Made by a program: the position numbers and the translations under genes. From Anderseniella sp. Alg231-50 (lineage in GTDB: Bacteria; Pseudomonadota; Alphaproteobacteria; Rhizobiales; Aestuariivirgaceae), in the NCBI RefSeq assembly GCF_900149695.1, contig NZ_LT703003.1:2361200-2425199 (forward strand): a DNA stretch of 64,000 nucleotides, given 5' to 3'. Shown here in pieces: positions 32,827 to 49,570 of the stretch (positions are counted from its first letter, which is position 1; every line of letters starts with the position of its first letter). A model generated the notes under the pieces. It had not been told where the DNA came from. It saw only the letters and a list, made by a program, of their open reading frames with translations, and searched no databases.

Positions 32827-33294
32827 CTACCCCTTCGACAGCTTGTTCAGTTCGGCCCGTGCCGCAGACAAATCCGCCGTCGTTGCGGCCAACCGCTCTG
32901 CCAGCACCTTCATGAGGTCGATCGCCATTGCAGGAAATTCCTTCAGCAGCTTGAGCAATTGCTCCTTCTCGATACACAGTGTTTCCAGCTTGGTGGCGGC
33001 ACGCACGCTTGCGGTTCGCGGTACATCACACAAAATGGCGATTTCACCGATAACGTCATTCTCGCCAAGCGTCGCCACGACCACGTCACTGCCATTGATT
33101 TTGACAATGACCTCCGCCTTTCCGCACAGCACAACATAGGCTGCATCACCGGAATCGTTCTGGTTGAACAGCATATCGCCTTCGGTAAAAGTCAGGCGTT
33201 GCGACGTAAAGGCCAGCAGTTTCAGCTGGCTCGGTTGCAGCCCGGCAAACAGTGATACATTGCCAAGCATCTCGACTTCATCATTAAGCGCCAT
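32827..33294 (-). CDS. Stand-alone cyclic nucleotide-binding domain protein
   Basis: A 155-aa protein consisting almost entirely of one cNMP-binding beta-roll. GDMLFNQNDSGDAAYVVLCGKAEVIV forms the strands, and the phosphate-binding cassette reads GENDVIGEIAILCDVPRTASV, with the G-E and R-T residues expected for cAMP or cGMP binding. There is no helix-turn-helix, so it is not a Crp-type regulator. GGGAG precedes the ATG. It lies 32 nt after the large ABC gene, suggesting it senses a cyclic nucleotide and acts on that exporter-like protein. A class III cyclase is encoded 14 kb away. Confidence 0.85.
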   Translation of the reverse strand: MALNDEVEMLGNVSLFAGLQPSQLKLLAFTSQRLTFTEGDMLFNQNDSGDAAYVVLCGKAEVIVKINGSDVVVATLGENDVIGEIAILCDVPRTASVRAATKLETLCIEKEQLLKLLKEFPAMAIDLMKVLAERLAATTADLSAARAELNKLSKG

Positions 33295-33326: not shown

Positions 33327-36050
33327 CTACTCTGCCAGCACTTTCGAATAGGCACCGCCACTTTTCAACAGTGTTTCTCGCTTGCCGGTTTCAAGTATTT
33401 TACCACCTGCCATTACACATATCTCATCAAAATCCGACGCCAGCGCAGCATCCGAAACCACCCACACAATGGCAGGCTTGTTCGGCTGTTGCGCTACATA
33501 GTTCATTACGTCGCTCAAGATTGCGGCCTGCTGACGACCATCAAGCGCGCTGAGCGGGCGGTTCAGCACCAGAAGGTCCGGCTGCTTGATCAGCGCCCGC
33601 GCCAGGCCCAGCTTCTGCCGCTGTACGGAACTCAACCGCTTGCCTGCCGAACCAATGTCAAATTCCAGGCCGAGATCGAGTATCTCGTCACGCAACTGCA
33701 TCTCCTTGAGGGTCGCCGACATCACCTCAAACACCCGCTGCGGTCCCCGCGCCATACCATGTGCGACACGTCCCATCAGCAGATTATCCTGAACCGATGC
33801 TGCCGCATTATAGGTTTCAGGATCGTAGAAGCTGATGGTGCCGGCAAGGTTTTCCGGCAAACCGCTCTTGAACCGGTTTCGGCCATCAAGAACCCGGTCC
33901 TGCAGATCGTCATCAACCAGTCCCATACGATGCTGCGGCTCCACATAGGAGAAGGTGAGTTCAATCAGCGTGTAGCGCTCGTCAACCGTCAGGGCGGTTT
34001 CGCCGGTCTGCTTGGCGCGTTTCAGGAGTGCCGCGTATTCAGGCAGACGTTCTGCATCCATAAAGGTTATCTGGTTGAAGAACTCATGATCCGGCGGCAG
34101 GTCCTGAAACAGGCCAATGGTCGTTTCCGCAAGTTCTATACCCTTGGCAAGCAACGCATCCTCGAGACCGGCGTCACGCAACACAGACCGAAGGTATTCG
34201 TTTTTCGCCAGGTTCTGAGGTGCAAACTCATCGCCAACCGGCGTACCGAACAACAGGTTTTCCCCGATTGTCGCCTGTACCGCATACTGTTGCGGATCAA
34301 ACAGCTCAACCAGTTCAGACAAATGCATTTCGTCGATATGTGAGCGCAGCGCCTTTCGGGCCGCGAGAATATTGTCGGCAAACTGCGGATTGCTGTGCGG
34401 ATCAACTTCACCCCGCAATCCGAGATTGAACACGTCGTCTTCCAGTCCTGCCGCACACAGCACGTTCACAAGGCGTTGGTGAATGACCATGCCTTCGCCG
34501 CTGGCAGCTACGTCATTATCGATGCTCAGCCAGTCCGCATCGATATCCAGATGGGTGTTGGCTGTAATTTCGGCCTCGTTGATAAACCGCTGACGGGTCA
34601 TGGCATCTGGACCTTCATAGGTCCGCTCTGCCACCGGTTGGTGTTTCAGGGCATAGAGCAGACCGTCACGAAGGCTGCCCTGCGGCAGGAATATATCGCT
34701 GGCTGCATAGCCTACGCGCCGCCCGATAACGCTCTCACCGATATCGAACAGGTCGGTGCCACCGTAACTGACCGAACCGTTGTCTGGGACATAAAGCCTG
34801 ACAATCGAGTCCGCCAGCACATCAGCGCCGGAATTTGACGGTCCGACCACGGCAAGGCTGGTGCCAGCCGCAATCTTCAGCCGGGCCCGGTTCAACAAGG
34901 TCGTGCCGGTATCGTCGGTCACCGTCAGGTTGTTGATTTCTATCGGGAACGCCAGAGGAGGCACCGCTTCGTCCGGCAGAGCCTGCAGGTTTTCGTCAAG
35001 CATGTCCTCGATATCAAACTGCTCCACCACCTGGGTGAACTTGACTTCCACATCAAGCCGCTGCTGGTCCCAGTCGATCAGTTCCTTGATCGGTGACGGC
35101 AGATCCTTGTAGGCGGCAATCACGGCAACCAGCTGGCCGACATCGATCTTGCCCTGCAGGGCGAAGTACCCGCCGACGACGTAAAACAGGAAAGGCGTAA
35201 TCTGGGCCAGCAGGTTATTGAGGAACTTGGTGAAAAACTTGCGCTGGAAAAGTTCGTAGCGAATGTAGAAAATCTTGGCCAGCCGGCTGGATATGTCTGC
35301 ACGCTCATAATGCGAGGTGTCATTGACGTGCACGTGCGTAATGCCGTCGACAATCTCGCCGACCCGCCCGGCCAGCTTGCGGGCCGTGATCTGGCGTTCC
35401 TTGCCCAGGCGGATCAGGTGGCGGCGCATTCTGGGAATGATGATGAACTGGATGCCGATCATGAAGATGGCGATCAGGCCCAGATAGACATTCTGGACCA
35501 TGATGAACGCCATGGCAGTGATGGCCTGCCCCCCCAGTAACAGGGGTTGTACGAAGGCATCGCCCATGAAGCCGCCAATGGGTTCGACTTCATCCTTCAC
35601 CATGCTGGCCATTTCGGAAGATTTTATGCGCCGGAATGCCCGCACCGGGAACCGCAACAGGCGGTCCACCAGCGAATAGCGAATGCGCCGCAACATGCGC
35701 TCGCCAAGCCTGCCCTTGTAGGTATTGATATAGAATTTGAACAAGCCATTGACGATGATCAATGTGAGGAATGCGCCGGACAGGGCAAACAGCATTTTTA
35801 CCCGCTCAAGCTGAAAGCCTTCAAACAGCACCCATTCCTCGCCGGAGAAAGTCCAGCTGAGTTTCATGAAAGTCTGTTCTGCGCCCGCCGTCTCAAAACC
35901 CTGCCCCAGTATCGGGCCATTGACGATCTGCTTGGGCAGGTCCAGCGACATGAAATAGGTCGGCATCGACAGCAGTACGATGAACAGAATGAATATCTGG
36001 GCCGATCGCGAATAGGTCCAGGTAAATCTCAGGATGTTCCGGTCAAGCAT
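33327..36050 (-). CDS. ABC exporter-like protein with degenerate ATPase domain and inserted repeats
   Basis: A 907-aa inner-membrane protein. Residues 1-340 form a six-helix type 1 exporter domain. The nucleotide-binding domain from about 368 to 907 is roughly twice normal size. Walker A is GPSNSGAD (403-410, lacking the Lys), the signature is LSSVQRQ (806-812), Walker B reads LLVLNRP (no D-E), and the H-loop His is replaced (VVSDAA). Between Walker A and the signature lie three segments of similar layout (SLRDGLLYA near 459, TIGENLLFG near 594, SVQDNLLMG near 752), each like the start of an ABC helical subdomain. Catalysis by this chain alone seems unlikely. It overlaps the upstream methyltransferase-like gene by 8 nt. 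Confidence 0.8.
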   Translation of the reverse strand: MLDRNILRFTWTYSRSAQIFILFIVLLSMPTYFMSLDLPKQIVNGPILGQGFETAGAEQTFMKLSWTFSGEEWVLFEGFQLERVKMLFALSGAFLTLIIVNGLFKFYINTYKGRLGERMLRRIRYSLVDRLLRFPVRAFRRIKSSEMASMVKDEVEPIGGFMGDAFVQPLLLGGQAITAMAFIMVQNVYLGLIAIFMIGIQFIIIPRMRRHLIRLGKERQITARKLAGRVGEIVDGITHVHVNDTSHYERADISSRLAKIFYIRYELFQRKFFTKFLNNLLAQITPFLFYVVGGYFALQGKIDVGQLVAVIAAYKDLPSPIKELIDWDQQRLDVEVKFTQVVEQFDIEDMLDENLQALPDEAVPPLAFPIEINNLTVTDDTGTTLLNRARLKIAAGTSLAVVGPSNSGADVLADSIVRLYVPDNGSVSYGGTDLFDIGESVIGRRVGYAASDIFLPQGSLRDGLLYALKHQPVAERTYEGPDAMTRQRFINEAEITANTHLDIDADWLSIDNDVAASGEGMVIHQRLVNVLCAAGLEDDVFNLGLRGEVDPHSNPQFADNILAARKALRSHIDEMHLSELVELFDPQQYAVQATIGENLLFGTPVGDEFAPQNLAKNEYLRSVLRDAGLEDALLAKGIELAETTIGLFQDLPPDHEFFNQITFMDAERLPEYAALLKRAKQTGETALTVDERYTLIELTFSYVEPQHRMGLVDDDLQDRVLDGRNRFKSGLPENLAGTISFYDPETYNAAASVQDNLLMGRVAHGMARGPQRVFEVMSATLKEMQLRDEILDLGLEFDIGSAGKRLSSVQRQKLGLARALIKQPDLLVLNRPLSALDGRQQAAILSDVMNYVAQQPNKPAIVWVVSDAALASDFDEICVMAGGKILETGKRETLLKSGGAYSKVLAE

Positions 36051-36663
36051 GGGTAACCATATTCTGTAGGTCGGAACTGCCGCTTCGAGGACGCAGCACA
36101 ACAAGACGGCGCGTGCCGTACTCAGTCGTTTCGAAAGCACCGTCCTCTATCGAAAAATCCAATGAGCAAACAGTCTCCGTTTCAGGGCGCTTCAGCAAAG
36201 ACTGCATCTGATCGCTGGCTCGCTGAAGGTTGGGCGAAAACTCAAGAACCGTAATGGCCGAATTGTCGATCAGCGAGAACAGTTTTTGCCCGACCGCGTC
36301 CTGACTTCCGAAAGCCTTTAACGAGTAACCCACGAACACCAGACCGTAGCTGCCGGGCTGCAGTTCAAGATCAACATCCTGAAACTTTCGCGCGATATGG
36401 CGCACCCGGCACGGTTCCCCGTCCAGTTTATCTGATTCGAAGGGTTCGGATTTGGGATCAATACAGACGAATTCTTCAGGCACGTGACGCAGGAAACCGG
36501 ACACGGGCTGGAGGTGTCCGCCAATCTCGACAATGGTAGCGCATCCGTCGACGAAGTACGCCGCCATGGCTTGCCGCAAACCGGCTGCCGGACCAGCCAG
36601 ATGCGGCATTCCGACCGGACCGGCAGGCAGATCACCTGGGAATTTAGCGGCTGGTCGCTGCAT
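36043..36663 (-). CDS. SAM-dependent methyltransferase-like protein
   Basis: A 206-aa soluble protein with a motif-I-like segment VEIGGHLQPVSGFLRHVPEEFVCIDP, in which the acidic end of the second strand (CIDP) and the glycine loop resemble Rossmann methyltransferases. GSYGLVFVGYSLKAFG may be motif IV/post-IV. No family was recognised with confidence. ATG 36663 is preferred to the TTG one codon upstream. It overlaps the ABC gene by 8 nt and is divergent from another methyltransferase-like gene, with about 105 bp between them. Confidence 0.55.
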   Translation of the reverse strand: MQRPAAKFPGDLPAGPVGMPHLAGPAAGLRQAMAAYFVDGCATIVEIGGHLQPVSGFLRHVPEEFVCIDPKSEPFESDKLDGEPCRVRHIARKFQDVDLELQPGSYGLVFVGYSLKAFGSQDAVGQKLFSLIDNSAITVLEFSPNLQRASDQMQSLLKRPETETVCSLDFSIEDGAFETTEYGTRRLVVLRPRSGSSDLQNMVTHA

Positions 36664-36768
36664 CAAATCTTCGTATGAATTTTGTTACCGTCATGTTTTT
36701 ACTAGCATAGCTGCGGTTGATTGCTCATACCACTGGAAATCACACTCGGTACCGCAAAGGTGAATACA

Positions 36769-37431
36769 GTGACCGAACGCAGTTTCAACAAAGATTACGT
36801 CTTCGACCTGTTGCGCGGAGCCGCCAAGTTTACCGGATCGGACCTGTTGTCGGCGCTTGCGGAAACCGTCGCTGAATTTCCCGACACGCCCGTTGACAAC
36901 GCATTCAACCACAAGCAGGTCGCCTCCAAGCAATGGGCCCGCGACATGCTGGCCACCCACACGCGCGGCGCATTCGACCATGTCTGGGTTATGGGCGGCT
37001 GGATCGGCATCCTGCCGGCCATGCTGTTTGATGATGCCAGGTTCAAGATCAAGGCAATCAGTAGTTTTGATATCGATCCCGCCGTTGCCCCGATTGCCGA
37101 AAAGCTGAACAGAAAACTGGCAGGTGAAGCGACCTTCAGCGCCCACACCGCGGACATGTATGCGCTCGACTACACCGGCATCGACGCCCCTGACCTGGTG
37201 ATCAATACAAGCTGCGAGCACATCGCGGACCTGCCGAAATGGCTCTCGCTGCTGCCAAGAGGTTGCCGGGTCATGCTGCAATCGAACAACTACACGTCCG
37301 AACCAACCCACGTAAATTGCGTTGAGAGCGTCGACGAACTGGCCCAGCAGGCGGCGTTGAGCGAGTTGAAATACGCCGGTGCACTGCGCCTGCCGAAATA
37401 CACACGTTTCATGCTGATTGGTCGCGTTTGA
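36769..37431 (+). CDS. SAM-dependent methyltransferase-like protein
   Basis: A 220-aa protein. HVWVMGGWIGILPAMLFDDARFKIKAISSFDIDPAVAPIAEKLN looks like motif I with its acidic residue (FDIDP), and DLVINTSCEHIADLPKWLSLLPRGCRVMLQSNNY like motifs IV to VI of a Rossmann methyltransferase. GTG 36769 is chosen because AGGTGA lies 6 nt upstream; in-frame GTG 36760 and TTG 36721 are alternatives. It is divergent from the methyltransferase-like/ABC genes and overlaps the convergent glycosyltransferase gene by 23 nt. A role in modifying a glycan or lipid is only inferred from neighbours. Confidence 0.6.
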   Translation: MTERSFNKDYVFDLLRGAAKFTGSDLLSALAETVAEFPDTPVDNAFNHKQVASKQWARDMLATHTRGAFDHVWVMGGWIGILPAMLFDDARFKIKAISSFDIDPAVAPIAEKLNRKLAGEATFSAHTADMYALDYTGIDAPDLVINTSCEHIADLPKWLSLLPRGCRVMLQSNNYTSEPTHVNCVESVDELAQQAALSELKYAGALRLPKYTRFMLIGRV

Positions 37432-38566
37432 ACTCCTCGTGGCGCTCCCTCAAAACACCTGCGGTGGCGACAGCGCCATCCAGCAGCATGCCGTCCGCGT
37501 AGTCACGATCCTGCTTGCAGGCGGCATCAATGGCGCGCGCCAGGTCTGCAGGAGACAGGTCGCCAGGCTGCATGCAGACCGCCAGACCGGCGGCTTGCAG
37601 ACGGCTTGCCCGGATCGTCTGTTCCTGCTCGCCGTGAGCCGCAAACGGCACCAGGACGCTTGCACATTTCGCCCGCAACACATCCGCAACGGTATTGTAG
37701 CCTGCCTGCGAGACGGAAACCCTGGCCTGCCTCAACAGGTGTGCAAGATCGGGCCGGAAGCGAACAATCTCGACATCGTCTGATGCATCGCCCTGCAGGC
37801 GCGCGACCGCCGCATCAGGCAGGTTTGGCCCGGTCACGATCAGCCAGTGTGCCGAATTGAGCGAGGTCAGTTCACGCGCTGCAAGACTGGCGCGCAGCAG
37901 GTCTTCACCCACTGCCCCACCACCTGCAGAAACAATCACATCATACCTGTCGGCAACTGGAGGCACCGTCTCATCCGGCGCAATCATGCCGGTATATGCG
38001 ATTTTGTCCGCAATTGAGCCCGCAGCTGAAAACGTCTCGTCGAGCGTTGCAAAACGCTCATCGCCGTGCACCAGAACCAGGTCAAAATAGCCGTCTACCA
38101 AACCTGCGGTGGCCTCGTCACGTTTTGCCGACTTGGGCTGCAGAATATCGCGAATGGAACTCACCACCATTGGCCGGCGGCCAGGCGGCAAGGATTTCAC
38201 GTGATCCAGCAGGGGCAGCAGCTCAAATCGCATCTGCCGGCGCGCAAATGGGTATGCCTCGATAACCAGGCAATCGGGTTCAATCTCGTCAAAGGCCTTG
38301 ATCAGCGCTTGTTTCCTGCGCGCCAGGTATACATCGCCGGCCTCGCGGCCATGTTCGTCGGCAAGGCCGGAAAAACTGTCGTCGGCGCTGCGCAACGGCG
38401 GCAACTGGACGTTGGCAACCTGCGCAGCCGGAAACCCGTCCACCGCCATACCACCGGTCACCATGGTGACATCCTGTCCATCGGACACCAGCGCGGACGC
38501 GATACGGCTGGCGCGTACCAGATGGCCTATGCCGAGCAGATGCTGCACATAGAACATGATTTTCAT
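37409..38566 (-). CDS. Glycosyltransferase, MurG-like (GT-B)
   Basis: A 385-aa GT-B protein. The N-terminus MKIMFYVQHLLGIGHLVRASRIASAL has the glycine-rich GxGHL motif of MurG-like transferases. The C-terminal domain has VSVSQAGYNTVADVLRAKCASVLVPFAAHGEQEQTIRA, the nucleotide-sugar binding region. It would transfer a sugar from a nucleotide donor to an unknown acceptor at the cytoplasmic face. Its ATG overlaps the upstream GT4 gene as ATGA. It is last in a run of three glycosyltransferase genes. Confidence 0.82.
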   Translation of the reverse strand: MKIMFYVQHLLGIGHLVRASRIASALVSDGQDVTMVTGGMAVDGFPAAQVANVQLPPLRSADDSFSGLADEHGREAGDVYLARRKQALIKAFDEIEPDCLVIEAYPFARRQMRFELLPLLDHVKSLPPGRRPMVVSSIRDILQPKSAKRDEATAGLVDGYFDLVLVHGDERFATLDETFSAAGSIADKIAYTGMIAPDETVPPVADRYDVIVSAGGGAVGEDLLRASLAARELTSLNSAHWLIVTGPNLPDAAVARLQGDASDDVEIVRFRPDLAHLLRQARVSVSQAGYNTVADVLRAKCASVLVPFAAHGEQEQTIRASRLQAAGLAVCMQPGDLSPADLARAIDAACKQDRDYADGMLLDGAVATAGVLRERHEEFKRDQSA

Positions 38567-39807
38567 CGGCGCGGTCCTGTGTCGCGTTGCGAAAACAGGT
38601 CCATCAATTGCCGCACCGATGCCTGGTGATCAAATTGTCCACGCACCTTACCCTCTGCCGCAGCTCCCAACCGGGCGCGCAAGGCAGGCTCGCGGGTGGC
38701 CTTTGTCAATGCGGAGGCCAGCGCCATCGGATCATCGGCTCTGACCAGCAGCCCGTGGGTACCATCGTCGATCAGTTCAGGCACGCCGGATACATCGGTC
38801 GAAACACAGGCAAGCCCCTGGGATGCCGCCTCGACCAGAACGTTGGGCAGCCCGTCGCGGTCGCCATCCGGCGCAATCCGGCAGGGCAGAACAAAAACAT
38901 CGCAGTCACGATAAAGCTTCAGCACATCTTCCTGGGCCATCGCACCATGCCAGGTGATACGGTCGGCGACACCAAGCCTGCCCGCCTGTTGCCTGAGGTC
39001 GTCCAGCAAATCACCGCCGCCGGCGTGATCAAATCGCCAGTGGATGTCTTGCGGCAGCTTCGCCAGCGCATCCAGCAAGGTATCGTATCCCTTCTTCGTC
39101 ACGGCACGCCCGACACTCACAAACCGGACCGGTGAAGCTTCATCACGGCCGTCCCGGACGTGTACCCGTTTGTCGAAAACCGAAAACCGGGACAGGTCAA
39201 GCCCGTGATATGACAGGTGCACCCGGGAGGGGTCGGCTGCCAATGACCGAAGTGTCGTGCAGCCGTTGCGGGTGCAGGTCACCGCCCAGTCCGCTTCAGC
39301 AAGCTTGTCGGCAAGGTCCCAGTCATCGCTGGTCCAGATGTCCTTTGCGTGTGCAGAGCATGTCCAGCCGAGTTGCAATATCATAGACGCATACCGCACC
39401 ACGGACGCCGGTGTGTGGATGAAGTGGGCATGCAGTGACGAGACCGCATCCTGCCGCTCTGCAGCCAGTACCATTGCCTGCACAAACCGGCGCGCCCGGT
39501 TGCTTGTCCTGTCGCGTGCCCAGTCGCGCCGGAAGGCCTTGAACGCCGCCCGATAGCCGGCCAGCCTGCGGACTTTCAGCCACGCCCTGAAACAGCGCAA
39601 TGGCTCATCCTTGACATATTCCGGCAGGTACATGACCGGCGCCTTGATTTCACCGTGCACCGGATGGCGCTTGCCGTCGGTTGGCCGGCGCAGCGAAATG
39701 ATCTCAAGCGGCAATCCGGCACGTTCCAGCCCCAGTATCTCCTGGGCGATGAATGTTTCCGACAGGCGCGGATAGCCTTTCAGGACGAATGCAACTGGCT
39801 GGGTCAT
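38563..39807 (-). CDS. Glycosyltransferase family 4
   Basis: A 414-aa GT-B enzyme. The donor-binding part has VSVGRAVTKKGYDTLLDALAKL, the middle SDCDVFVLPCRI-like segment YRDCDVFVLPCRIAPDGDRDGLPNVLVEAASQGLACVSTDVSGVPELI, and the EX7E-type acidic pair around PNVLVEAASQG. GT4 enzymes are retaining transferases common in exopolysaccharide and lipopolysaccharide loci. It lies 18 nt after the upstream GT gene and overlaps the downstream one by 4 nt. Donor and acceptor unknown. Confidence 0.88.
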   Translation of the reverse strand: MTQPVAFVLKGYPRLSETFIAQEILGLERAGLPLEIISLRRPTDGKRHPVHGEIKAPVMYLPEYVKDEPLRCFRAWLKVRRLAGYRAAFKAFRRDWARDRTSNRARRFVQAMVLAAERQDAVSSLHAHFIHTPASVVRYASMILQLGWTCSAHAKDIWTSDDWDLADKLAEADWAVTCTRNGCTTLRSLAADPSRVHLSYHGLDLSRFSVFDKRVHVRDGRDEASPVRFVSVGRAVTKKGYDTLLDALAKLPQDIHWRFDHAGGGDLLDDLRQQAGRLGVADRITWHGAMAQEDVLKLYRDCDVFVLPCRIAPDGDRDGLPNVLVEAASQGLACVSTDVSGVPELIDDGTHGLLVRADDPMALASALTKATREPALRARLGAAAEGKVRGQFDHQASVRQLMDLFSQRDTGPRR

Positions 39808-39825: not shown

Positions 39826-41037
39826 TCAGCCGGCATCCGCAACGGCATAGAGGTCCGCAGCCGGCCTGCTGGCGGCCCATTTGCTCACAAAAGCATTTAT
39901 GGTTTCCAGTCCGTTCAGCATTTCAGCACCTCCGGCACTGTCAGGCAGGGCACGGTCAGGCAGGCCGGCCAACGCCGCAGACAGTGAAACAGCGTCATCT
40001 GCATCACTGGGCAGCATCATCTGAACAAGGTTCAGTTGTTCGGCCCGGCGCGCCCGGATGAACTGCTCTTCACGCGGGTTTGTGCGCGGCACGATCAGGG
40101 CCGGCTTGTTGAACGACAACACTTCGCAGAACGTATTGTAGCCACACATGCCGACAATGGCTGATGCACTCTCGACCAGGTCTTCCATGCTGTTGTCAAA
40201 CTCGATCACGTCCACATTGTCCATCAACTCACCCTGGCGGAATATCTCGGTACGCTCGCCGGTCGGCATCAGGGGTCCCAGCACCAGCAGCGCTCGCGGC
40301 AGGTCGTGCGCCTTGGCGGCATAAGCGCCAAGCACTTGCGTCATGAGACGCGCGCCGTCGCCGCCACCGCCGCCCGTCACCAGCAGATAGGGCTCACTGG
40401 GCAGGTTCATTGTAACCGGAGAGGACGGTCGCGACCTGCGCAAAAAACCAAGATACAGGGTTTTTTCTCGCACCTGATCACTGACATCAAGCCCGGTCAG
40501 CGGATCCCAGAAGTCCTCGGTCCCATAGACCCAGATATCATCATAGAGATTTTCAACATGCGCGAGCGCGTCGGTCTTTTCCCATTCCCGTTCAAGCTTT
40601 TCGGCTGAGTCCATCACATCACGCAGGCCCAGAACCAGCCGGCATCCCTGCTCGCGCAGATACTTCAATGTGGGCAGCATTTCGCCCCGCAGGCCCAGAG
40701 GCTCCTTGTCCACGATCATTATGTCGGGCTGAAACGACTCCGCCGTGTGCTGGATTATCGACTGGCGCATCTGCAACGTGTCGGTCAGATCGATATGCTT
40801 GTCGATCGAGGTATACTCGCCATTGTACAGCTTGATGACCGAGGGAATTTTCACGAAGTCGACGCGAGCCGAAAAGTTGAACGCACCGGCAATCTGCGAC
40901 CCCGTTATGATCAGGATGCTGACACCCTTGAAGTTTTCAACCAGAGAATGAGCGATGGCGCGACAGCGGCGAAGGTGCCCCAGCCCGAAAGTATCGTGGC
41001 TGTACATCAGAATGTGAACATTGCCGAGACGTTTCAT
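39826..41037 (-). CDS. Glycosyltransferase, MurG-like (GT-B)
   Basis: A 403-aa GT-B protein resembling the gene at 37.4-38.6 kb: MYSHDTFGLGHLRRCRAIAHSL at the N-terminus and IVGMCGYNTFCEVLSFNKPALIVPRTNPREEQFIRARR in the C-terminal donor site. The similar layout suggests both arose by duplication. It is the first gene of the three-gene glycosyltransferase run, with about 130 bp upstream before the peptide-transporter permease gene on the same strand. Substrates are not visible. Confidence 0.82.
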   Translation of the reverse strand: MKRLGNVHILMYSHDTFGLGHLRRCRAIAHSLVENFKGVSILIITGSQIAGAFNFSARVDFVKIPSVIKLYNGEYTSIDKHIDLTDTLQMRQSIIQHTAESFQPDIMIVDKEPLGLRGEMLPTLKYLREQGCRLVLGLRDVMDSAEKLEREWEKTDALAHVENLYDDIWVYGTEDFWDPLTGLDVSDQVREKTLYLGFLRRSRPSSPVTMNLPSEPYLLVTGGGGGDGARLMTQVLGAYAAKAHDLPRALLVLGPLMPTGERTEIFRQGELMDNVDVIEFDNSMEDLVESASAIVGMCGYNTFCEVLSFNKPALIVPRTNPREEQFIRARRAEQLNLVQMMLPSDADDAVSLSAALAGLPDRALPDSAGGAEMLNGLETINAFVSKWAASRPAADLYAVADAG

Positions 41038-41169: not shown

Positions 41170-42351
41170 TTACTTGTATGGGTCGGCAGCATCACGAAGT
41201 CCATCCCCAAGGAAGTTGAACGCCAGGATGACCAGCACCACCGGGACAACCGGCAGCATCAACCATGGATAAAGCGCGACCACATTGATGTTCTGAGCTT
41301 CGATCAGCAGGACACCCCATGAGGTTATCGGCGGACGCAGTCCCAGGCCCAGGAAACTGAGCGCTGTTTCGCCCAGGATCATGGTCGGAATGGCAATCGT
41401 CGCAGTGGCGATCAGGTGAGACATGAAGCCCGGCACGAGATGCAGCGATATTATGCGCCTCGGTTTCGCGCCCATCAGCTGGGCCGCCATCACATAGTCT
41501 TCTTCCCGCAATGAGAACAGCTTCGAGCGCACCGCCCTGGCCAGCCCGGTCCAGTCCAGCAGGCCGAGGATGACTGTGATCCCGAAATACACCACCAGCG
41601 GACTCCAGGTCACCGGCATGATGGCGGCCAGCGCCAGCCACAACGGTATGGAGGGAAGTGATTGCAGAACCTCGATGATGCGCTGGACAACCATATCGAC
41701 CCAGCCGCCATAGTATCCGGCCATACCGCCTATGACGATGCCCAGCACAAAACTGACCATGACACCAAGCAGGCCGATGGTCAGCGATATCCGGGCGCCG
41801 CCCATGATACGCGAAAACATGTCCCGGCCCAGCCGGTCGGTGCCCAGCAGGAACAATTCGCCGCCATTGGCAGGGCAGAACAGATGGGTTTCCATCTCCA
41901 CCAGCCCCCACCAGTAGTACTTGTCGCCGCTGCAGAAGAAGCGGATTTTGTCCAGCGTGCTGGTATCCTTGGTATATTCGCGTTTCAGCGTTTCCATGTT
42001 GAGCGTGTATTTCTGGCGATACACAAACGGCCCGACAAACTCGCCTTCATGGATGAGATGCACACGCTGTGGCGGAGAATAGATGTGGTCCACATGACGA
42101 CTCTGGATGTTGTACGGTGCCAGAAACTCGCTGATAAAAATGGTGGCATATAAAATCGCCAGAAACACCCCGCACCACACTGCGATACGGTGCTGTCTGA
42201 ATTTCCACCACATCAGCTTCCACTGCGGCGCGAGATAGACTTTTTCCTGCTCGGGAGAAATCTTCTCGATCGACATGACATCGAACGGCGCGTCGGACAC
42301 GTAGTGCCCCATCTCTTTGCCGGGTGGCGGCAATGGCGATGTCATCTTCAT
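41170..42351 (-). CDS. Opp/Dpp-type ABC transporter permease (OppC-like) with periplasmic insertion
   Basis: A 393-aa inner-membrane permease. After one N-terminal membrane helix (about residues 58-75) comes a hydrophilic segment of roughly 110 residues, much longer than in OppC. It is followed by the core BPD domain with LGTDRLGRDMFSRIMGGARISL and the EAA loop AARLMGAKPRR-like sequence (AAQLMGAKPRRIISLHLVPG). Similar insertions occur in YejE-type permeases. It overlaps the OppB-like gene by 4 nt. With the other three subunits it would import peptides or oligosaccharides. Confidence 0.85.
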   Translation of the reverse strand: MKMTSPLPPPGKEMGHYVSDAPFDVMSIEKISPEQEKVYLAPQWKLMWWKFRQHRIAVWCGVFLAILYATIFISEFLAPYNIQSRHVDHIYSPPQRVHLIHEGEFVGPFVYRQKYTLNMETLKREYTKDTSTLDKIRFFCSGDKYYWWGLVEMETHLFCPANGGELFLLGTDRLGRDMFSRIMGGARISLTIGLLGVMVSFVLGIVIGGMAGYYGGWVDMVVQRIIEVLQSLPSIPLWLALAAIMPVTWSPLVVYFGITVILGLLDWTGLARAVRSKLFSLREEDYVMAAQLMGAKPRRIISLHLVPGFMSHLIATATIAIPTMILGETALSFLGLGLRPPITSWGVLLIEAQNINVVALYPWLMLPVVPVVLVILAFNFLGDGLRDAADPYK

Positions 42352-43346
42352 TTGGTTTGCGCCCCCTGCAGCCGGATACGCGGGTCAAGCAAAGCCAGCG
42401 CAAAATCTGAAATCAACACCCCGATAACCGACAGGAACGCCAGGAACATCAGGAACGACCCGGCCAGGTACATGTCCTGCGCCTGCAGGGCCCGGATCAG
42501 CAGCGGACCGGTGGTTTCCAGTGACAACACAATCGCGGTTATTTCCGCGCCTGAGATAATGGCCGGCAGGATCGAGCCGATGTCCGAAATGAAGAAATTC
42601 ATCGACATGCGCAGCGGATACTTCATCAGCGCCTTGAACGGATGCAGTCCCTTGGCCCTGGCCGTAATCACATACTGCTTCTGCAACTCATCCAGCAGGT
42701 TGGCACGAATGCGCCGGATCATGCCGGCGGTGCCGGCCGTGCCGATAATGATCACCGGAATGATCAGGTGCTCCAGGATGGATTGTGCCTTGGCCCAGCT
42801 CATCGGCTGATTGAAATACTGCGCATCCATCAGGTGACCGATGGAGGTGCCGAACCACAGATTGGCCAGGTACAGGAACACCAGGGCCAGCAGGAAGTTC
42901 GGGGTGGCAAGACCGAGCAGGCCAACGAAGGTCAAGCCGTAGTCACCCCATGAATACTGATGGGTTGCCGAATAGATGCCGATTGGAAAGGCAATGACCC
43001 AGGTGAAGATGATGGTGACGAAGGACACCAGCATGGTGAGCCAGAGCCGGTCGCCGACCACATCGGTTACCGGCAACTCATACTCGAACGAATAGCCGAA
43101 ATCACCTTGCAGCATGCCCCACACCCAGTGGAAGTACCGCTCCACGGGAGGTTTGTCGAAGCCATACTGAACCTTCAGTGCCTCGATCGCCTTCAGGTCC
43201 ACACTCTCGCCCTGTGCCTGCAGTTCGGCCACATAGCTTTCGAAATAATCGCCCGGCGGCAATTCGATGATGGCGAACACCAGGGCGGAGATCATGAACA
43301 GTGTGGGAATCATGACGACAATGCGCCATGCGATATATCTCAACAT
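42348..43346 (-). CDS. Opp/Dpp-type ABC transporter permease (OppB-like)
   Basis: A 332-aa permease with the OppB layout: a first membrane helix (ARWIVVMIPTLFMISALVFAI-like), a periplasmic segment, then five membrane helices with the EAA-type loop TARAKGLHPFKALMKYPLRMS. It pairs with the OppC-like protein to form the membrane channel. Three bases separate it from the binding-protein gene upstream, and it overlaps the OppC-like gene as ATGA, so the transporter genes form one operon. Confidence 0.88.
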   Translation of the reverse strand: MLRYIAWRIVVMIPTLFMISALVFAIIELPPGDYFESYVAELQAQGESVDLKAIEALKVQYGFDKPPVERYFHWVWGMLQGDFGYSFEYELPVTDVVGDRLWLTMLVSFVTIIFTWVIAFPIGIYSATHQYSWGDYGLTFVGLLGLATPNFLLALVFLYLANLWFGTSIGHLMDAQYFNQPMSWAKAQSILEHLIIPVIIIGTAGTAGMIRRIRANLLDELQKQYVITARAKGLHPFKALMKYPLRMSMNFFISDIGSILPAIISGAEITAIVLSLETTGPLLIRALQAQDMYLAGSFLMFLAFLSVIGVLISDFALALLDPRIRLQGAQTK

Positions 43347-43349
43347 GAC

Positions 43350-45266
43350 CTAATTGCCCCCGGTGCCGTCTTTGAACCAGAATGTGTCGACCATGAACAC
43401 ACCGAAATAACTGCCCGGCTGGAAGCTGTAGACTTCCTCCTCCGGCACATTGCGCAGCTTCTTGCTGACCACAATCGGTTGTAATGTCGAATTGACCGTA
43501 CCGATGGAAAACACCTCGTTGGTATAAAGCTTCAGCATGTCGTTCCAGATACGCTTGCGGGTCTCGTCATCGCGCGATTGCTGCCACTCCTGCCACAGGG
43601 ACAACAACCGCTTGGCCGATGGCAAGTCCGGTTCGGTTCCCGATTTGCCGCCGGTCATGCCGTACAGGCCCCACTGCGGCCATTGCGTCTGGGAATCGTT
43701 GCTCGGTGCAAGTTCTTCCGGCGACATGGATGCCTGGGGGATCGCATTGTCCAGTCCCGACCACACACTCATCATCGTGTTGCCGGCCTTCAGGCGCGAC
43801 CGGAATATGTCGCGCTGGGTGGCCCGGGTGAAAACCTTCAGGCCCAGTTCCTGCCAATGATCGGTAATGAGCTGCAGCACGTCCGTTTCGACAGTGCTTT
43901 CACCGGCTGATTCAATGATCAGTTCCGCCCGCTGGCCGTCCGGCAACAGGCGCACGCCGTCCTCGTCGCGTTTGTCCAGACCGGCCTGGTCAAGCAGGCG
44001 ATTGGCCAGTACCGGATCGTGGGCGGCCCACGCGCTTGCATAGTCCGCACTGAACAGCGGGCTTTGCTTGAGCGGTGAATCAGCAACTTCCTTGCCCAGG
44101 CCGAAGAACGTCACCATGTTTATTTCATGCCGGTTTATCCCGAGCGACAGGGCTTGCCGGAACCGGACATCCTGCATCACCGCACGCCAGGCATCATCCT
44201 TGAAGTTCAAATTGGGCCTGATGGCGACCTTGGAGCCAACCGCCGATTTCCACAGCAATACTTTGTAGCCCTGGCGTTTTTCACTCTGCTTCAGAAAGGT
44301 ATAATCTTCAAAACTGACATACCGGCCCTGCAGGTCGCTCTCACCCGCCCCGGTCTTGGCGGGTATCAGATTGGTGGATGAGATGTTCATTTCCACAGTA
44401 TCGATGTAGGGCAACTGGCGGCCTTGCGCATCGACCCGATGGAAGTAGGGATTGCGCTTGAATACAAACTGCTCCGATGGCGGCGCAATGGTATTGTACC
44501 AGGGCTCCAGTGTCGGCAGGTCGGGGTTTTCAGGCCTGTTTTGCCGACCCAGGCGAATGAACATGGCCCGCCAGTGCTTGTACTTGCGCTTCTTGGCCAG
44601 CGCATCGGCCTCATCCTTGCCGATATAGGAAGCATGAAACTGCTTCATGTAGGTCGATGGATAGGTCAGGTACAACGGTAGCGGCGCAGCCAGTGCTGGC
44701 AGGAACTTCGGATTTGGCGCGTCCCATTCGTAGCGCACCGTCACCTCGTCAATGACGGTGAACTTGGGTCCCTTGCCGTCGACCAGCATGGCATTCGGCA
44801 GGCCGCCGCGCCGCAGTTTCTTGTTCAGCATCACGTCTTCATAGGTGAAGCGGAAATCTTCGGTTGTGAGCGGCGCTCCGTCGGACCAGCGATGCCCGGG
44901 CCTGAGATGCAGTGTGAAGATGCGGCCGTCCTCGACCTCGTAGCTTGCCAGGATATCCGGCTGAAGCGTGTAAGTCAGATCATAGCCGACAAGACGCGAA
45001 TAGCCGTAATAGACCATCATCCGCACGTCTTTCTTGCGTCCCATCAGCATGCGCAGCTTGCCGCCGTGGCGACCCGGCTCGCGCCCGAGTTTTTCCAGGT
45101 CGATTATCCGCGGTTGTGCCGGCACCCGTTTGGCAACCGGATCGATTTTCCCGGCTTTCACCAGGTCTTCGAGGTACGGCGTTTCCTGAAACGTCATTGC
45201 GACGGCGCTTGCCTGCATTCCGGCAAGCAGAAGCAACCCCAGTACTGCAAAGCGTAGATAGGTCAT
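43350..45266 (-). CDS. ABC transporter substrate-binding protein, family 5
   Basis: A 638-aa periplasmic protein with a signal peptide (LRFAVLGLLLLAGMQASAVA). GRHGGKLRMLMGRKKD and LHLRPGHRWSDGAPLTTEDFRFTYEDV are family 5 signatures. The length exceeds that of usual peptide-binding proteins (about 520-560) and resembles long members such as AgpA-type oligosaccharide binders, so the ligand could be a peptide or an oligosaccharide. Start is uncertain between GTG 45269 and ATG 45266; the ATG overlaps the ATPase stop as TGATG, with AAGGAG slightly upstream. Confidence 0.85.
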   Translation of the reverse strand: MTYLRFAVLGLLLLAGMQASAVAMTFQETPYLEDLVKAGKIDPVAKRVPAQPRIIDLEKLGREPGRHGGKLRMLMGRKKDVRMMVYYGYSRLVGYDLTYTLQPDILASYEVEDGRIFTLHLRPGHRWSDGAPLTTEDFRFTYEDVMLNKKLRRGGLPNAMLVDGKGPKFTVIDEVTVRYEWDAPNPKFLPALAAPLPLYLTYPSTYMKQFHASYIGKDEADALAKKRKYKHWRAMFIRLGRQNRPENPDLPTLEPWYNTIAPPSEQFVFKRNPYFHRVDAQGRQLPYIDTVEMNISSTNLIPAKTGAGESDLQGRYVSFEDYTFLKQSEKRQGYKVLLWKSAVGSKVAIRPNLNFKDDAWRAVMQDVRFRQALSLGINRHEINMVTFFGLGKEVADSPLKQSPLFSADYASAWAAHDPVLANRLLDQAGLDKRDEDGVRLLPDGQRAELIIESAGESTVETDVLQLITDHWQELGLKVFTRATQRDIFRSRLKAGNTMMSVWSGLDNAIPQASMSPEELAPSNDSQTQWPQWGLYGMTGGKSGTEPDLPSAKRLLSLWQEWQQSRDDETRKRIWNDMLKLYTNEVFSIGTVNSTLQPIVVSKKLRNVPEEEVYSFQPGSYFGVFMVDTFWFKDGTGGN

Positions 45267-47194
45267 CACGCACGCAGCTCCTTCATGCTGGCATTTGCAT
45301 TGGCAAGCACCATGTGCCCGTCGCCAACATCAATTGAGGCCATGCCCCCGTTGCCGGTCTCGCGCTTGAAGGCCTGCGGCCACAAGGTATCATCGGATGC
45401 GCCGGACAATGACAGGGTATCGTAATCCAGCGGCCGATCCAGATCCGGAAACGGCACCGCCGCCAGTAGCGACCGCGTATACGGATGCAGCGGACTGCGG
45501 AAAATCTTTTCCCGGCTTGCCATCTCGACGATCCGACCCTGGCACATGACGGCTATACGGTCGGCCATGTAATCGATAACCGCCAGGTTGTGAGACACAA
45601 ACAGATAGGTGAGATCGAGCTGGCTTTGCAGGTCCTTGAGCAGGTTGAGGACCTGCGCCTGCACTGACACATCCAGCGCCGATACCGGCTCATCGCAGAT
45701 CAGGAGGCCCGGATTGAGAGCAAGCGCACGGGCAATGCCGATGCGTTGCCGCTGGCCGCCGGAAAAGCTGTGCGGATACCGGTTGAGGAAACGGGGATCA
45801 AGGCCAACCGCCTGCATCAGACCGGCAGCGTGCTGCCGCCGGCTTTCCGACGTGCCAACCTTATGGATCTCCATCGGTTCGGTCAGGATGTTGGACACCG
45901 TCATGCGCGGATTGAGCGAGGAGAACGGGTCTTGGAACACCATCTGGATTCGGGTGCGCAGCGTGTTAAGTTCCGCCGCGTTTGCCTGGGCCATGTCGAT
46001 CGGTGCATGCCCGCGATCGGAATAAATGATCTCGCCGGCATCAGGAGTTACAGCACGCATGATTAATTTGGAAACGGTGGTCTTGCCGCAGCCGCTCTCA
46101 CCCACGAGGCCGAGGCACTCGCCACGCCTGATGTCGAGACTGACGCCGTCAACCGCCTTGATGACACTTTCTTCCTTGCTGGCGAGCCAGCCGGATTTCT
46201 TGGTGAAAAAATGCTTCTGCAGATTGCGCACCGATAACAACGGCGGCTCTTCCTCACCCTCACCCGCTGGATCCGCCTTCAACTCAACCTTTTCTGCCAC
46301 AGGACCTTTCAACAGCGTCGCTGCATCGACCTTGACGTCGCGCAGTGACACCAGGCGTTCACCCCGCTTCATGTCGAAATGCGGAACCGCATTCAGCAGA
46401 GCCTTCAGGTACGGATGCTGCGGCGACCGGAATATATGCGACACCTGGCCTGCTTCGACGATCTGGCCGTGATAGATGACCACCACATCATCGGCCATGT
46501 TGGCGACCACGCCGAGATCGTGGGTGATCAGCAGGATCGCCATGTTGAAGCGTTCCTGCAAGTCTTTCAGCAGTTGCAGGATTTGCGCCTGTATCGTGAC
46601 ATCGAGGGCCGTTGTCGGCTCATCGGCAATCAGCAATGCCGGCCGGCAGATGAGCGCCATGGCAATCATCGCGCGCTGGCGCAGACCACCGGACAACTCG
46701 AACGAATACATGTCATAGGCCTTTGCCGGATTGGGGAATCCGACCAGCCCCAGCATTTCCTCGGTCTTTGCCCGGGCCGCATTGCGGTCCACCGGCTGAT
46801 GAAGCTGAAGCGCCTCTTCTATCTGGTTGCCGACGGTGTGCAGCGGCGACAGCGACGTCATGGGCTCCTGAAAAATCATGGCGATGCGCCCGCCGCGCAG
46901 ATCCCGCATTTCAGGTCCACTGGGTAACAGTTCTTCAATCTGAACCGGTCCTGATTTGGAATTCGGGTCATTGAAGGTTATCGACCCGCCGGCGATGGAT
47001 CCCACTGTCGGCAGGATGCCCATGATCGATTGACCAATAACCGACTTGCCGGAACCGGATTCGCCAACCAGTGCCGTCACCTTGCCAGGACGAATGCGGA
47101 AGCTTGCTCCCTTCACCGCCTCGATGGTCGATGAATGAACGCGAAAGCTGATCCGCAGGTCTTCGATTCGTAGAAGATCTTCAGAGGAACTCAT
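45266..47194 (-). CDS. Fused double ATP-binding subunit of Opp/Dpp-type ABC transporter
   Basis: A 642-aa protein with two complete ABC domains in one chain, corresponding to DppD plus DppF (as in YejF or GsiA). The first has Walker A GESGSGKS, signature LSGGLRQR and Walker B LLIADEP. The second has [16 protein letters not shown] and [12 protein letters not shown]. Each is followed by the oligopeptide-transporter C-terminal segment ([26 protein letters not shown]). It is first in the transporter operon (ATPase-binding protein-permease-permease) and divergent from the cyclase gene across 268 bp. Confidence 0.9.
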
Positions 47195-47462: not shown

Positions 47463-48842
47463 ATGTCATCCCTGCAACAAGTTACCGAAACCGCGAACTC
47501 GGGCACGCCCTCGACGTGGCGCAGAATCAGGAGCCTCGTGCCCGGCACAACTCCGGCACGCGCGCTGTCACCCAGGGTGCTGGCTTCGATAGATCGTCAC
47601 GACCAGTCCAGTGAAGTTCTGATCAAGGTTATCCAGCTGGTCATCGTATCAACATGGGCGATTTTGTACGCGATTGCGCCGAAGACCGATTTCGGCACCG
47701 CGTTTTCCCCGGTCTCCTGGGCACTGGCTATCTACTTTGGCCTCAATGTCATCGGGTTGATCTGGGCGCACCGGACAGGCCTGCCGAACTGGGCCGTCTA
47801 CATTTCGATCATTTTCGATATTGCGATCCTGATGCTCCTGATCTGGAGCTTTCATATTCAGTACGATCAACCGCCTTCGTTCTATCTCAAGGCACCCACC
47901 CTGCTCTACGTGTTCATCTTCATCGCCCTGCGCGCCCTTCGCTTCCAGGCCCGCTTTGTTGTGTTCTCAGGGCTGGCGGCGGCGGTCGGCTGGCTGACCC
48001 TGGTTGCCTATGCGGTGTATTCCGCACATGGCATGAGCACGACACGCAATTACATCGAATACCTGACCGGCAACGAAATTCTGCTGGGCGCCGAGTTCGA
48101 CAAGACCATCACCATTGTCATGGTCGCCGGCATCATTGCCGTCGCTCTGAGCCGGGCCAATGACCTTCTGGTCAGGGCAACTGCTGATGCCCAGGCGGCT
48201 AACGAACTGTCCCGGTACTTCGACAGCGCGGTGGCATCCGACATTCGCAATGCTGACGAAGCCGCCACGCCCGGCAAGGGCAAGCGTGTTGAAGCGGCGA
48301 TCCTCAATGTCGACCTGCGCGGCTTCACCAAGTACGCCTCAGGCAAGGACGCTGAGAATGTGCTGGGCCTGCTGATCGCCTACCAGAAACGTATTGTGGG
48401 CATTATCCAGGGACATGGCGGTTCCATCGACAAATTCATGGGCGACGGCATCATGGCGACGTTCGGTGCCGTGCGCGCAAGTGAAACCTATGCCGCCGAT
48501 GCGGTGCGCGCGATTGATGCGATCATTGCTGAAACCGACACCTGGGACACGGATGAGACGCTGAAGGTATTTGCCGGCGGCAAAGTCAACGCAGCCGTTG
48601 CTGCCGGTCCCATTGTGTTTGGCACGATAGGCGACGACTCGCGGCTGGAGTTCACGGTGATCGGGTCAGCGGCGAACATGTCGGCCAAGCTGGAAAAACA
48701 CAACAAGACAACCAGGAGCCGCGCCCTGACCGACGGCCACACGTACGATGTTGCCCTTGAACAGGGATACGAACCTGCCAAACCTGCCCGCCGGCGGAAA
48801 TCCACCCTGGCCGGTGCCGATCAGCTGGTGGTTCTGGGATGA
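47463..48842 (+). CDS. Membrane-bound class III adenylate/guanylate cyclase
   Basis: A 459-aa protein with about six membrane helices (residues 52-230) and a C-terminal class III cyclase domain (about 275-445). Metal ligands are D284 (NVDLRGFTK) and D328 (KFMGDGIMATFG), and the purine-specifying Lys is K324. Two canonical positions differ: the usual Asp of the GDxVN motif is Ser402 (GSAAN) and the transition-state Arg is Lys409. It may make cAMP or cGMP, or have altered specificity. GGAGGAC lies before the ATG. Its 3' end overlaps the convergent deacetylase gene by 22 nt. It lies within the glycan locus and may supply the ligand of the cyclic-nucleotide-binding protein. Confidence 0.85.
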   Translation: MSSLQQVTETANSGTPSTWRRIRSLVPGTTPARALSPRVLASIDRHDQSSEVLIKVIQLVIVSTWAILYAIAPKTDFGTAFSPVSWALAIYFGLNVIGLIWAHRTGLPNWAVYISIIFDIAILMLLIWSFHIQYDQPPSFYLKAPTLLYVFIFIALRALRFQARFVVFSGLAAAVGWLTLVAYAVYSAHGMSTTRNYIEYLTGNEILLGAEFDKTITIVMVAGIIAVALSRANDLLVRATADAQAANELSRYFDSAVASDIRNADEAATPGKGKRVEAAILNVDLRGFTKYASGKDAENVLGLLIAYQKRIVGIIQGHGGSIDKFMGDGIMATFGAVRASETYAADAVRAIDAIIAETDTWDTDETLKVFAGGKVNAAVAAGPIVFGTIGDDSRLEFTVIGSAANMSAKLEKHNKTTRSRALTDGHTYDVALEQGYEPAKPARRRKSTLAGADQLVVLG

Positions 48843-49570
48843 TGATCCAGGGTGTCGGCAAACGGCACCCAGTTCAGACCAGGGTGCGCCAGCACGCCGC
48901 CAAGCGCAGACCAGGCCGCATCATCATGAACCAGGTGGTGGGTCAGCAGGCCGACAGGGTAAAATCCGTTCGCGCGCGAAACCCCTAGTGCCGCAGCCAG
49001 TTCGGATAGTATCCGGTCTTGCTCCTTTCCCGCGGCACCGCCCGCTGCTTTCCAGTCCATCACGTCCACATGGGTGTTTGCCTGTATGGCGGGCAATGTG
49101 CGTTTGTGCGCAAAGGTTGAAAACGCATCTATGCCAATTTCGCCGAGGTGCGGGGCAAGATCGCCGCGCATGCGATTCCATGGCGGCACCAGAACCGGCG
49201 CGAGCCTTGAACCGAACAACCGTGCAAGCTGTTGCCGGCCCCGGGATATATCTGACAGTACTGTGTCCAGCGCCCGATGGTCTCCAAGTTCACATTTCTT
49301 CTCGCCCGCAGGGGCATGGTTGGTGTGCGACCAGCCGTGCACGCACGGGGTCAGATTGCCATTTTGTGCGACATGATCCGCCAGCGACTGATCCGCATGT
49401 GCCGGGATCACGGCAAGCAAAACCTCAACGCCGGCTTCGCCAGTGACCTGAGTGAGGCGGTCCAGTCGCGGGGTCGCCGACACCGCATCATCATCGCGCC
49501 ACCAGACTTGCGGCGGCTTGCCGGCACCCCGCCAGTTCTGCAATTCAAACTCAAGCTCGGGATGGCTCAT
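48821..49570 (-). CDS. Polysaccharide deacetylase-like protein (NodB-type fold)
   Basis: A 249-aa protein whose middle matches a carbohydrate esterase 4-like barrel: KPPQVWWRDDDAV near the start gives an Asp-Asp pair, PCVHGWSHTNH supplies metal histidines, and FGSRLAPVLVPPWNRM follows. The usual TFDDG motif is replaced by WRDDDA, as in many divergent deacetylase-like proteins. No signal peptide, so it would act in the cytoplasm on sugars or glycolipids. It overlaps the GT4 gene upstream by 4 nt (ATGA). Confidence 0.75.
   Translation of the reverse strand: MSHPELEFELQNWRGAGKPPQVWWRDDDAVSATPRLDRLTQVTGEAGVEVLLAVIPAHADQSLADHVAQNGNLTPCVHGWSHTNHAPAGEKKCELGDHRALDTVLSDISRGRQQLARLFGSRLAPVLVPPWNRMRGDLAPHLGEIGIDAFSTFAHKRTLPAIQANTHVDVMDWKAAGGAAGKEQDRILSELAAALGVSRANGFYPVGLLTHHLVHDDAAWSALGGVLAHPGLNWVPFADTLDHHPRTTS

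Follow-up and report, generated by a model that had tools for sequence, protein, structure and literature searches.

An alphaproteobacterial family of ABC-exporter-like proteins with altered nucleotide sites, a repeat-containing insert and a cyclic-nucleotide-binding partner

The 64,000-nucleotide stretch of DNA analyzed here (the window) encodes an ABC-exporter-like protein that retains no member of the set required for ATP hydrolysis: the Walker A lysine, the Walker B Asp-Glu pair and the H-loop histidine. ATP hydrolysis is the hallmark of ABC transporters; the window protein and the members of its clade very probably do not perform it. Judged by its sequence, the protein descends from an ABC exporter. 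The reading that we favor, at roughly even odds (about 0.5), is that an exporter has turned into a membrane component, controlled by a cyclic nucleotide, of a pathway for surface glycans or glycolipids; both the glycan role and the signal control are predictions. It is the combination of an exporter build, lost ATPase residues, a repeated insert, and neighbors of the cyclic-nucleotide-binding (cNMP) and sugar-transferase types that suggests such a signal-controlled surface-sugar component.

Results

The protein and its nucleotide site

The open reading frame at 33327-36050 of the minus strand encodes 907 amino acids and a stop codon; an in-frame GTG at 36140 is a possible alternative start. 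The features of the protein, and of the gene downstream of it, are as follows.

33327..36050, minus strand: ABC-exporter-like protein with a pseudo-ATPase domain, 907 aa (translation, Pfam, motif reading)
34971..36050, minus strand: membrane domain, residues 1-360 (Pfam ABC_membrane), the most conserved portion of the protein
34821..34844, minus strand: Walker A place GPSNSGAD, residues 403-410, with Ala409 for Lys and Asp410 for Ser/Thr
34305..34733, minus strand: repeat unit 1 (U1), residues 440-582, comprising Q-loop entry GSLRDGLLYA, helices and exit helix
33831..34313, minus strand: repeat unit 2 (U2), residues 580-740, comprising ATIGENLLFG, helices and exit helix
33555..33839, minus strand: repeat unit 3 (U3), residues 738-832, comprising ASVQDNLLMG, signature helix and Walker B place
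33615..33635, minus strand: signature LSSVQRQ, residues 806-812
33555..33575, minus strand: Walker B place LLVLNRP, residues 826-832, with Asn830 for Asp and Arg831 for Glu
33444..33461, minus strand: H-loop region VVSDAA, residues 864-869, lacking His
32827..33294, minus strand: cNMP-binding protein, 155 aa, with Glu84 and Arg93 of the binding cassette kept (Pfam)

Both halves of the exporter architecture are recognized by Pfam above the respective cut-offs: ABC_membrane on residues 89-311 (E 7.9e-17, 62.3 bits against a cut-off of 28) and ABC_tran in two stretches (E 6e-11, 43.5 bits against 25). The altered Walker A, Walker B and H-loop positions had been claimed in an earlier sequence-only reading, and our reading of the motifs in the 907-residue translation bears the claim out; the Q-loop glutamine is gone as well, with Ser451 in its place. 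The gene is present in a single copy in its genome, the next-best match scoring 44 bits against 2020. Its top NCBIfam match is MsbA_lipidA (TIGR02203; E 6.7e-49, 166.8 bits). Since the equivalog cut-off of that model is 602, we rejected the identification of the protein as the MsbA lipid A flippase.

Distribution of the family

The sequence-only reading had allowed for a conserved family, and there is one: searching with the insert described below, we obtained matches in 131 of the 385 genomes of the class and in 97 of the 297 genomes of the order. Within a sample of the phylum, 31 of 398 genomes matched, each of them inside the same class. The family is alphaproteobacterial. Among public plasmid records, 260 of 72,556 contain a match (Rhizobium 144, Sinorhizobium 80), and pSymB of Sinorhizobium meliloti 1021 carries a copy of the family. 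We found no description of the family or of its gene cluster in the literature searched, few subscription journals being within reach.

For the comparisons below, 236 matches were reduced to 179 distinct rows, the window included, by dropping frames shorter than 780 aa and duplicates over the last 500 residues. Two groups of members stand apart. Five divergent members (L054, L055, L059, L063 and L066; family code f42) retain the insert, and the remainder of their sequence matches poorly. The f60 genomes (L146-L151) carry one to three copies each, with the cNMP domain fused and the motifs strongly eroded; L148, L149 and L150 are three paralogues of one such genome.

Loss and replacement of catalytic residues

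The Walker A lysine is kept in 48 of the 179 rows, the catalytic glutamate as well in 35 of those, and the histidine too in 18 of the 35. Lys, Glu, His and the Q-loop Gln occur together in six rows, and four rows (L130, L142, L143 and L216) combine GK[S/T] with Asp-Glu. On a FastTree tree of the family, computed without the motif columns, at least 18 changes of the lysine are counted, and the window belongs to a 49-row clade whose support is 100; the tree carries a long-branch warning (L145 with L061) that lies outside this clade.

None of the 49 rows of the window's clade has Lys, catalytic Glu or His, and what replaces these residues is itself conserved. Position 409 is Ala, Gly or Thr in 49/49 rows, 410 is Glu or Asp in 47/49, 830 is Asn in 49/49, and 831 is Arg or Lys in 44/49. 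Among 32 non-redundant rows, these four columns fall in the most conserved fifth of the domain, and the H-loop place varies freely. The clade also retains the Walker A glycines (G408 in 49/49 rows, G403 in 43/49) and the signature Gln810 (48/49). Because the substitutes are conserved, we conclude that the site has not decayed at random, but has been rebuilt.

Homologues that possess both the lysine and the glutamate, which the sequence-only reading had named as counter-evidence, thus occur outside the window's clade, in the 35 rows noted above, and in 0 of the 49 rows inside it. Their existence implies that the dead site is a derived state, in a family of ABC-exporter origin. Catalytic loss is derived, and is not family-wide.

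A further pattern links the two Walker motifs. Of the 144 rows that could be scored (out of 179), 102 combine an acid in the Walker A Ser/Thr position with Asn or Ser in the Walker B Asp position, the full split being 102/28/8/6. When the comparison is confined to independent pairs, the swap is not significant (sign test, median p 0.5 and 0.25). Among the 48 rows with lysine (for example L138-L141 and many of L184-L243), 37 carry Asp or Glu instead of the Walker A Ser/Thr, and in 38 the Walker B Asp is replaced by Asn or Ser. Thus, in lysine-bearing rows, Walker A seems to have gained the acid that Walker B lost, as supported by few independent events.

An insert containing repeated segments

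The span from Walker A to the signature is 403 residues in the window protein and 104 in an exporter of the same genome that we take to be Atm1-like, so that about 300 extra residues precede the signature. The insert suggested by the sequence-only reading is therefore real, although smaller than the roughly 350 residues given there.

That reading had also described three similarly built segments between Walker A and the single signature, and these are related beyond chance. Comparing family profiles with hhalign, we find E 1.3e-7 for U1-U2, 2.8e-14 for U2-U3 and 4.6e-8 for U1-U3, and for each pair of units 0 of 100 column shuffles matched the real score. These profiles exclude the five divergent members; the relation was first seen in an earlier hhalign run with 30 shuffles per pair. 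As a control, four comparisons of units with membrane-domain segments each gave a probability below 1.

The repetition does not extend over the whole of each unit. The Q-loop/X-region entry and the helix sequence following it are repeated in all three. The exit helix is common to units 1 and 2 alone (T1-T2, probability 94.5), and the signature is confined to unit 3. Comparisons of the exit helices with unit 3 were not significant (T1-T3, probability 3.3; T2-T3, 2.0), with 2 of 100 shuffles reaching the real score in each case, and we rejected the notion that units 1 and 2 are complete copies that include the signature helix. Hence the proposed repetition of three whole helical subdomains is supported in part, for the entry segment, present three times, and for the exit helix, present twice. 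Against a profile of ordinary ABC domains, constructed from 8 sequences that were picked by motif and are not all proven exporters, unit 3 scores a probability of 98.8, unit 1 88.4 and unit 2 a weak 20.3. By this profile similarity, unit 3 is the ordinary ABC segment of the three.

Searches for relatives of the insert elsewhere returned little. PHROGs gave no match to the window's insert, no PDB sequence matched it with E below 0.5, and Pfam searches of the inserts of 32 members returned four families, each in 1/32 only, with E up to 0.1. An AlphaFold2 model of the full-length protein, computed from an alignment of 5 sequences (the window and four loci), had a mean pLDDT of 34.8, and a model of the unit 2 region (residues 572-763) one of 56.2; with these models, too poor to serve as evidence, Foldseek found no PDB match with E below 0.001.

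Conservation of the two domains

Over 29 family rows, taken from the window and the genomes of 28 relatives, the membrane domain averages 68% pairwise identity, against 42-44% for the ABC domain and 42% for the insert. In these genomes, the Atm1-like exporter shows 62% in its membrane domain and 74% in its ABC domain; its lysine and serine are invariant in 29/29 rows, and its Walker B Asp and Glu are present in 28, with one gap. The membrane domain of the family is therefore under stronger constraint than its ABC domain, the reverse of the pattern in an ordinary exporter. Among lysine-bearing members, mean entropy is 1.27 in the membrane domain and 1.43-1.95 in sections of the ABC domain, as computed on members only; if this holds, the reversal predates the catalytic loss.

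The cyclic-nucleotide-binding partner

A cNMP-binding reading frame had been noted 32 nt downstream of the ABC gene, and its position is confirmed and general: in 170 of 178 loci, a set that includes some near copies, a cNMP gene lies directly downstream or is fused (18 loci). The residues of the binding cassette are retained by most partners (Glu in 159/171 rows, Arg in 167/171). The eight loci without such a gene are the five divergent members, which lack the tested glycosyltransferases nearby as well, together with L238, L091 and L185, the last two having merely 0.9-1.3 kb of downstream sequence. A sensor conserved beside the ABC gene or fused with it, its ligand residues kept, would fit a system regulated by a cyclic nucleotide.

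The partner of the window matches TIGR03896, the model for bacteriocin-transport-associated cNMP proteins, with E 1.6e-14 and 54 bits (cut-off 161.05), and is outscored there by the acetyltransferase Pat family at 60.9 bits (cut-off 460).

The gene neighborhood

Upstream of the ABC gene, the window contains the following genes.

36043..36666, minus strand: uncharacterized ORF of 207 aa, among the loci examined seen only in close relatives (L009-L012)
36721..37431, plus strand: homologue of a protein annotated as a SAM-dependent methyltransferase in a Mesorhizobium cluster, without Pfam match
37409..38566, minus strand: GT28-type glycosyltransferase (GT28a)
38563..39807, minus strand: GT4-type glycosyltransferase
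39826..41037, minus strand: GT28-type glycosyltransferase (GT28b)
41170..47194, minus strand: oligopeptide-type ABC importer (OppC, OppB, SBP_bac_5, double ATPase)
47463..48842, plus strand: nucleotidyl cyclase (Guanylate_cyc, E 5e-6) with a hydrophobic N-terminal part
48821..49570, minus strand: homologue of a Mesorhizobium-cluster protein whose annotation is polysaccharide deacetylase; no Pfam match for either copy
49567..50652, minus strand: second GT4-type glycosyltransferase (GT4b)
50752..51930, plus strand: DUF3095 protein

Thus a single stretch of the window, at 32.8-51.9 kb, holds two GT28 and two GT4 enzymes, the deacetylase homologue, the cyclase, the DUF3095 protein and the oligopeptide-type importer. 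The annotated cluster of Mesorhizobium sp. WSM1497 contains glycosyltransferase, methyltransferase, ABC, cNMP, deacetylase and DUF3095 genes, and additionally two cyclases and a nucleotide-sugar dehydrogenase.

In the 118 loci whose flanks reach at least 4.9 kb in each direction, a glycosyltransferase of any tested type is found in 90 and absent from 28, a cyclase of the tested types is found in 33 and absent from 85, and a metallohydrolase is found in 32; these are raw counts over family loci only and, like the other neighbor counts, leave out the near copies L103, L104 and L106. Where the upstream flank alone reaches 4.9 kb or more (127 loci), GT28a, GT4 and GT28b are all present in 84. The layout seen most often is head-to-head, with the deacetylase homologue, GT28a, GT4b, GT4 and GT28b upstream on the opposite strand (60/127); the window's own layout, with the three glycosyltransferase types upstream on the same strand, occurs in 10/127. 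Where the encoded protein has Lys, Glu and His (16 loci), a glycosyltransferase gene is present in 14 and a cNMP gene in 15. Members that retain these residues, and so may still be ATPases, therefore share the setting, and the neighbors alone do not imply loss of ATPase activity.

In the window, in its close relatives and in S. meliloti (L107), the cluster includes the oligopeptide-type importer operon; an OppC homologue is present in 15 of 135 loci. DUF3095 stands beside cyclase and glycosyltransferase genes in the window, in the Mesorhizobium cluster (L105) and in L154; the literature searched yielded no mention of it.

The S. meliloti copy of the family is, at a guess, SMb20813. In the accessible portions of the two papers concerned, SMb20813 is named as the S. 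meliloti msbA homologue (PMC10945364), and SMb20804 and SMb20805 are linked to the capsule (PMC5539429).

Discussion

The loss of catalytic residues could be understood in several ways. The best reading of the window's clade is a predicted regulated scaffold, channel or flippase, and not an ATP pump, as the sequence-only reading had suggested. It is strengthened by the pattern of constraint, because the ABC domain is relaxed while the membrane domain is tightly conserved.

The sequence of events that we envisage would begin with an ATP-driven ABC exporter, whose ABC domain grew by repetition of the Q-loop/helical-subdomain segment. The nucleotide site would then have been rebuilt in the clade of the window, Lys becoming Ala or Gly, Ser/Thr becoming Glu or Asp, Asp becoming Asn, and Glu becoming Arg or Lys. 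In the present-day system, a glycan would be made in the cytosol by the GT28 and GT4 enzymes, and a nucleotidyl cyclase would produce a signal to be sensed by the cNMP-binding protein (fused in some relatives). Through the enlarged ABC domain, itself inactive, the sensor may act on the membrane domain of exporter type, and the latter would retain a conserved job in product binding, gating or passage. The glycan substrate, the cNMP control, the role of the ABC domain as receiver and the flow of product are what we infer. A bolder account, which we hold to be improbable, is that an exporter was converted within one class, with its intermediates still alive, to a cNMP-gated glycan conduit or flippase, in which the ATP pocket became a charge-swapped closed site and the enlarged ABC domain receives the signal. 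In such a pocket, a salt bridge would possibly join the acid that stands for the Walker A Ser/Thr to the Arg that stands for the catalytic Glu.

It is important, however, to weigh these ideas against other explanations of the same motifs. The window protein could be the inactive half of a heterodimeric exporter, driven by an ATP-hydrolyzing half encoded elsewhere. Ordinary exporters exist in the window's genome, and degenerate sites on one side are common among type I exporters; in Pdr5, according to the accessible part of one study, a degenerate site with every motif changed persists beside an active one (PMC7756269). Nevertheless, a query for a second exporter half (one query, E 1e-20) returned none in 135 family loci. 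Such halves are usually encoded together, and the family members with Lys and Glu suggest that the ancestors worked as homodimers, so that we regard an active partner encoded elsewhere as unlikely.

Alternatively, ATP or another nucleotide might be bound without being hydrolyzed, its binding closing the ABC dimer and switching the membrane domain. The glycines and the signature glutamine retained by the clade would agree with this possibility, as would the paired acid and Asn/Ser change; yet that change stems from few independent events, with the non-significant sign tests given above, and loss of the Walker A lysine usually cripples nucleotide binding, which leaves binding without hydrolysis doubtful. 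Finally, the gene might be decaying toward loss, given that an ordinary exporter conserves its ABC domain better and that the lysine was altered so many times on the tree. This we consider very improbable: no internal stop occurs among the family matches listed, the membrane domain shows strong conservation, and both the substitutes and the neighbors are conserved too.

The window protein can be compared with several known systems. It resembles exporters of the MsbA type (type IV fold, PF00664 and PF00005) in its membrane domain and in the backbone of its ABC domain. It differs from them in its roughly 300 extra residues, in lacking Lys, Asp, Glu, His and Gln, in having a cNMP partner, and in a membrane domain conserved above the ABC domain. 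Like Pdr5, TAP and CFTR, as far as the accessible sources describe them, it has lost several catalytic motifs, and the loss is conserved. Those systems, however, contain a second, active site in the complex. For the window family, the one query returned no partner half nearby in 135 loci, and a homodimer of the window protein would hold no active site at all.

A coupling of a cNMP-type sensor with an ABC exporter, as in the window family, has a precedent in HetC of Nostoc. In the accessible part of its description, HetC is a peptidase-type exporter whose N-terminal cNMP-type domain is essential for function and bound ppGpp, cAMP giving no significant protection, and an ATPase residue is essential as well (PMC10986499). 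Unlike HetC, so described, with its peptidase domain and essential ATPase residue, the window family has a sensor that is separate or fused at the C terminus, and the window's clade has lost the ATPase residues. The name of TIGR03896 likewise ties a cNMP-domain protein to ABC export, but the window's partner scores below the cut-off of that model, and its setting is one of glycosyltransferases.

Taken together, the family is widespread and ranges from near-canonical to motif-free members, with the membrane domain and the sensor conserved, and it thereby offers a test of how an ATP machine may be converted to signal control. A second implication is an alphaproteobacterial system for surface glycans, in which a component of the inner membrane would be under cyclic-nucleotide control and of which pSymB of S. 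meliloti carries a copy.
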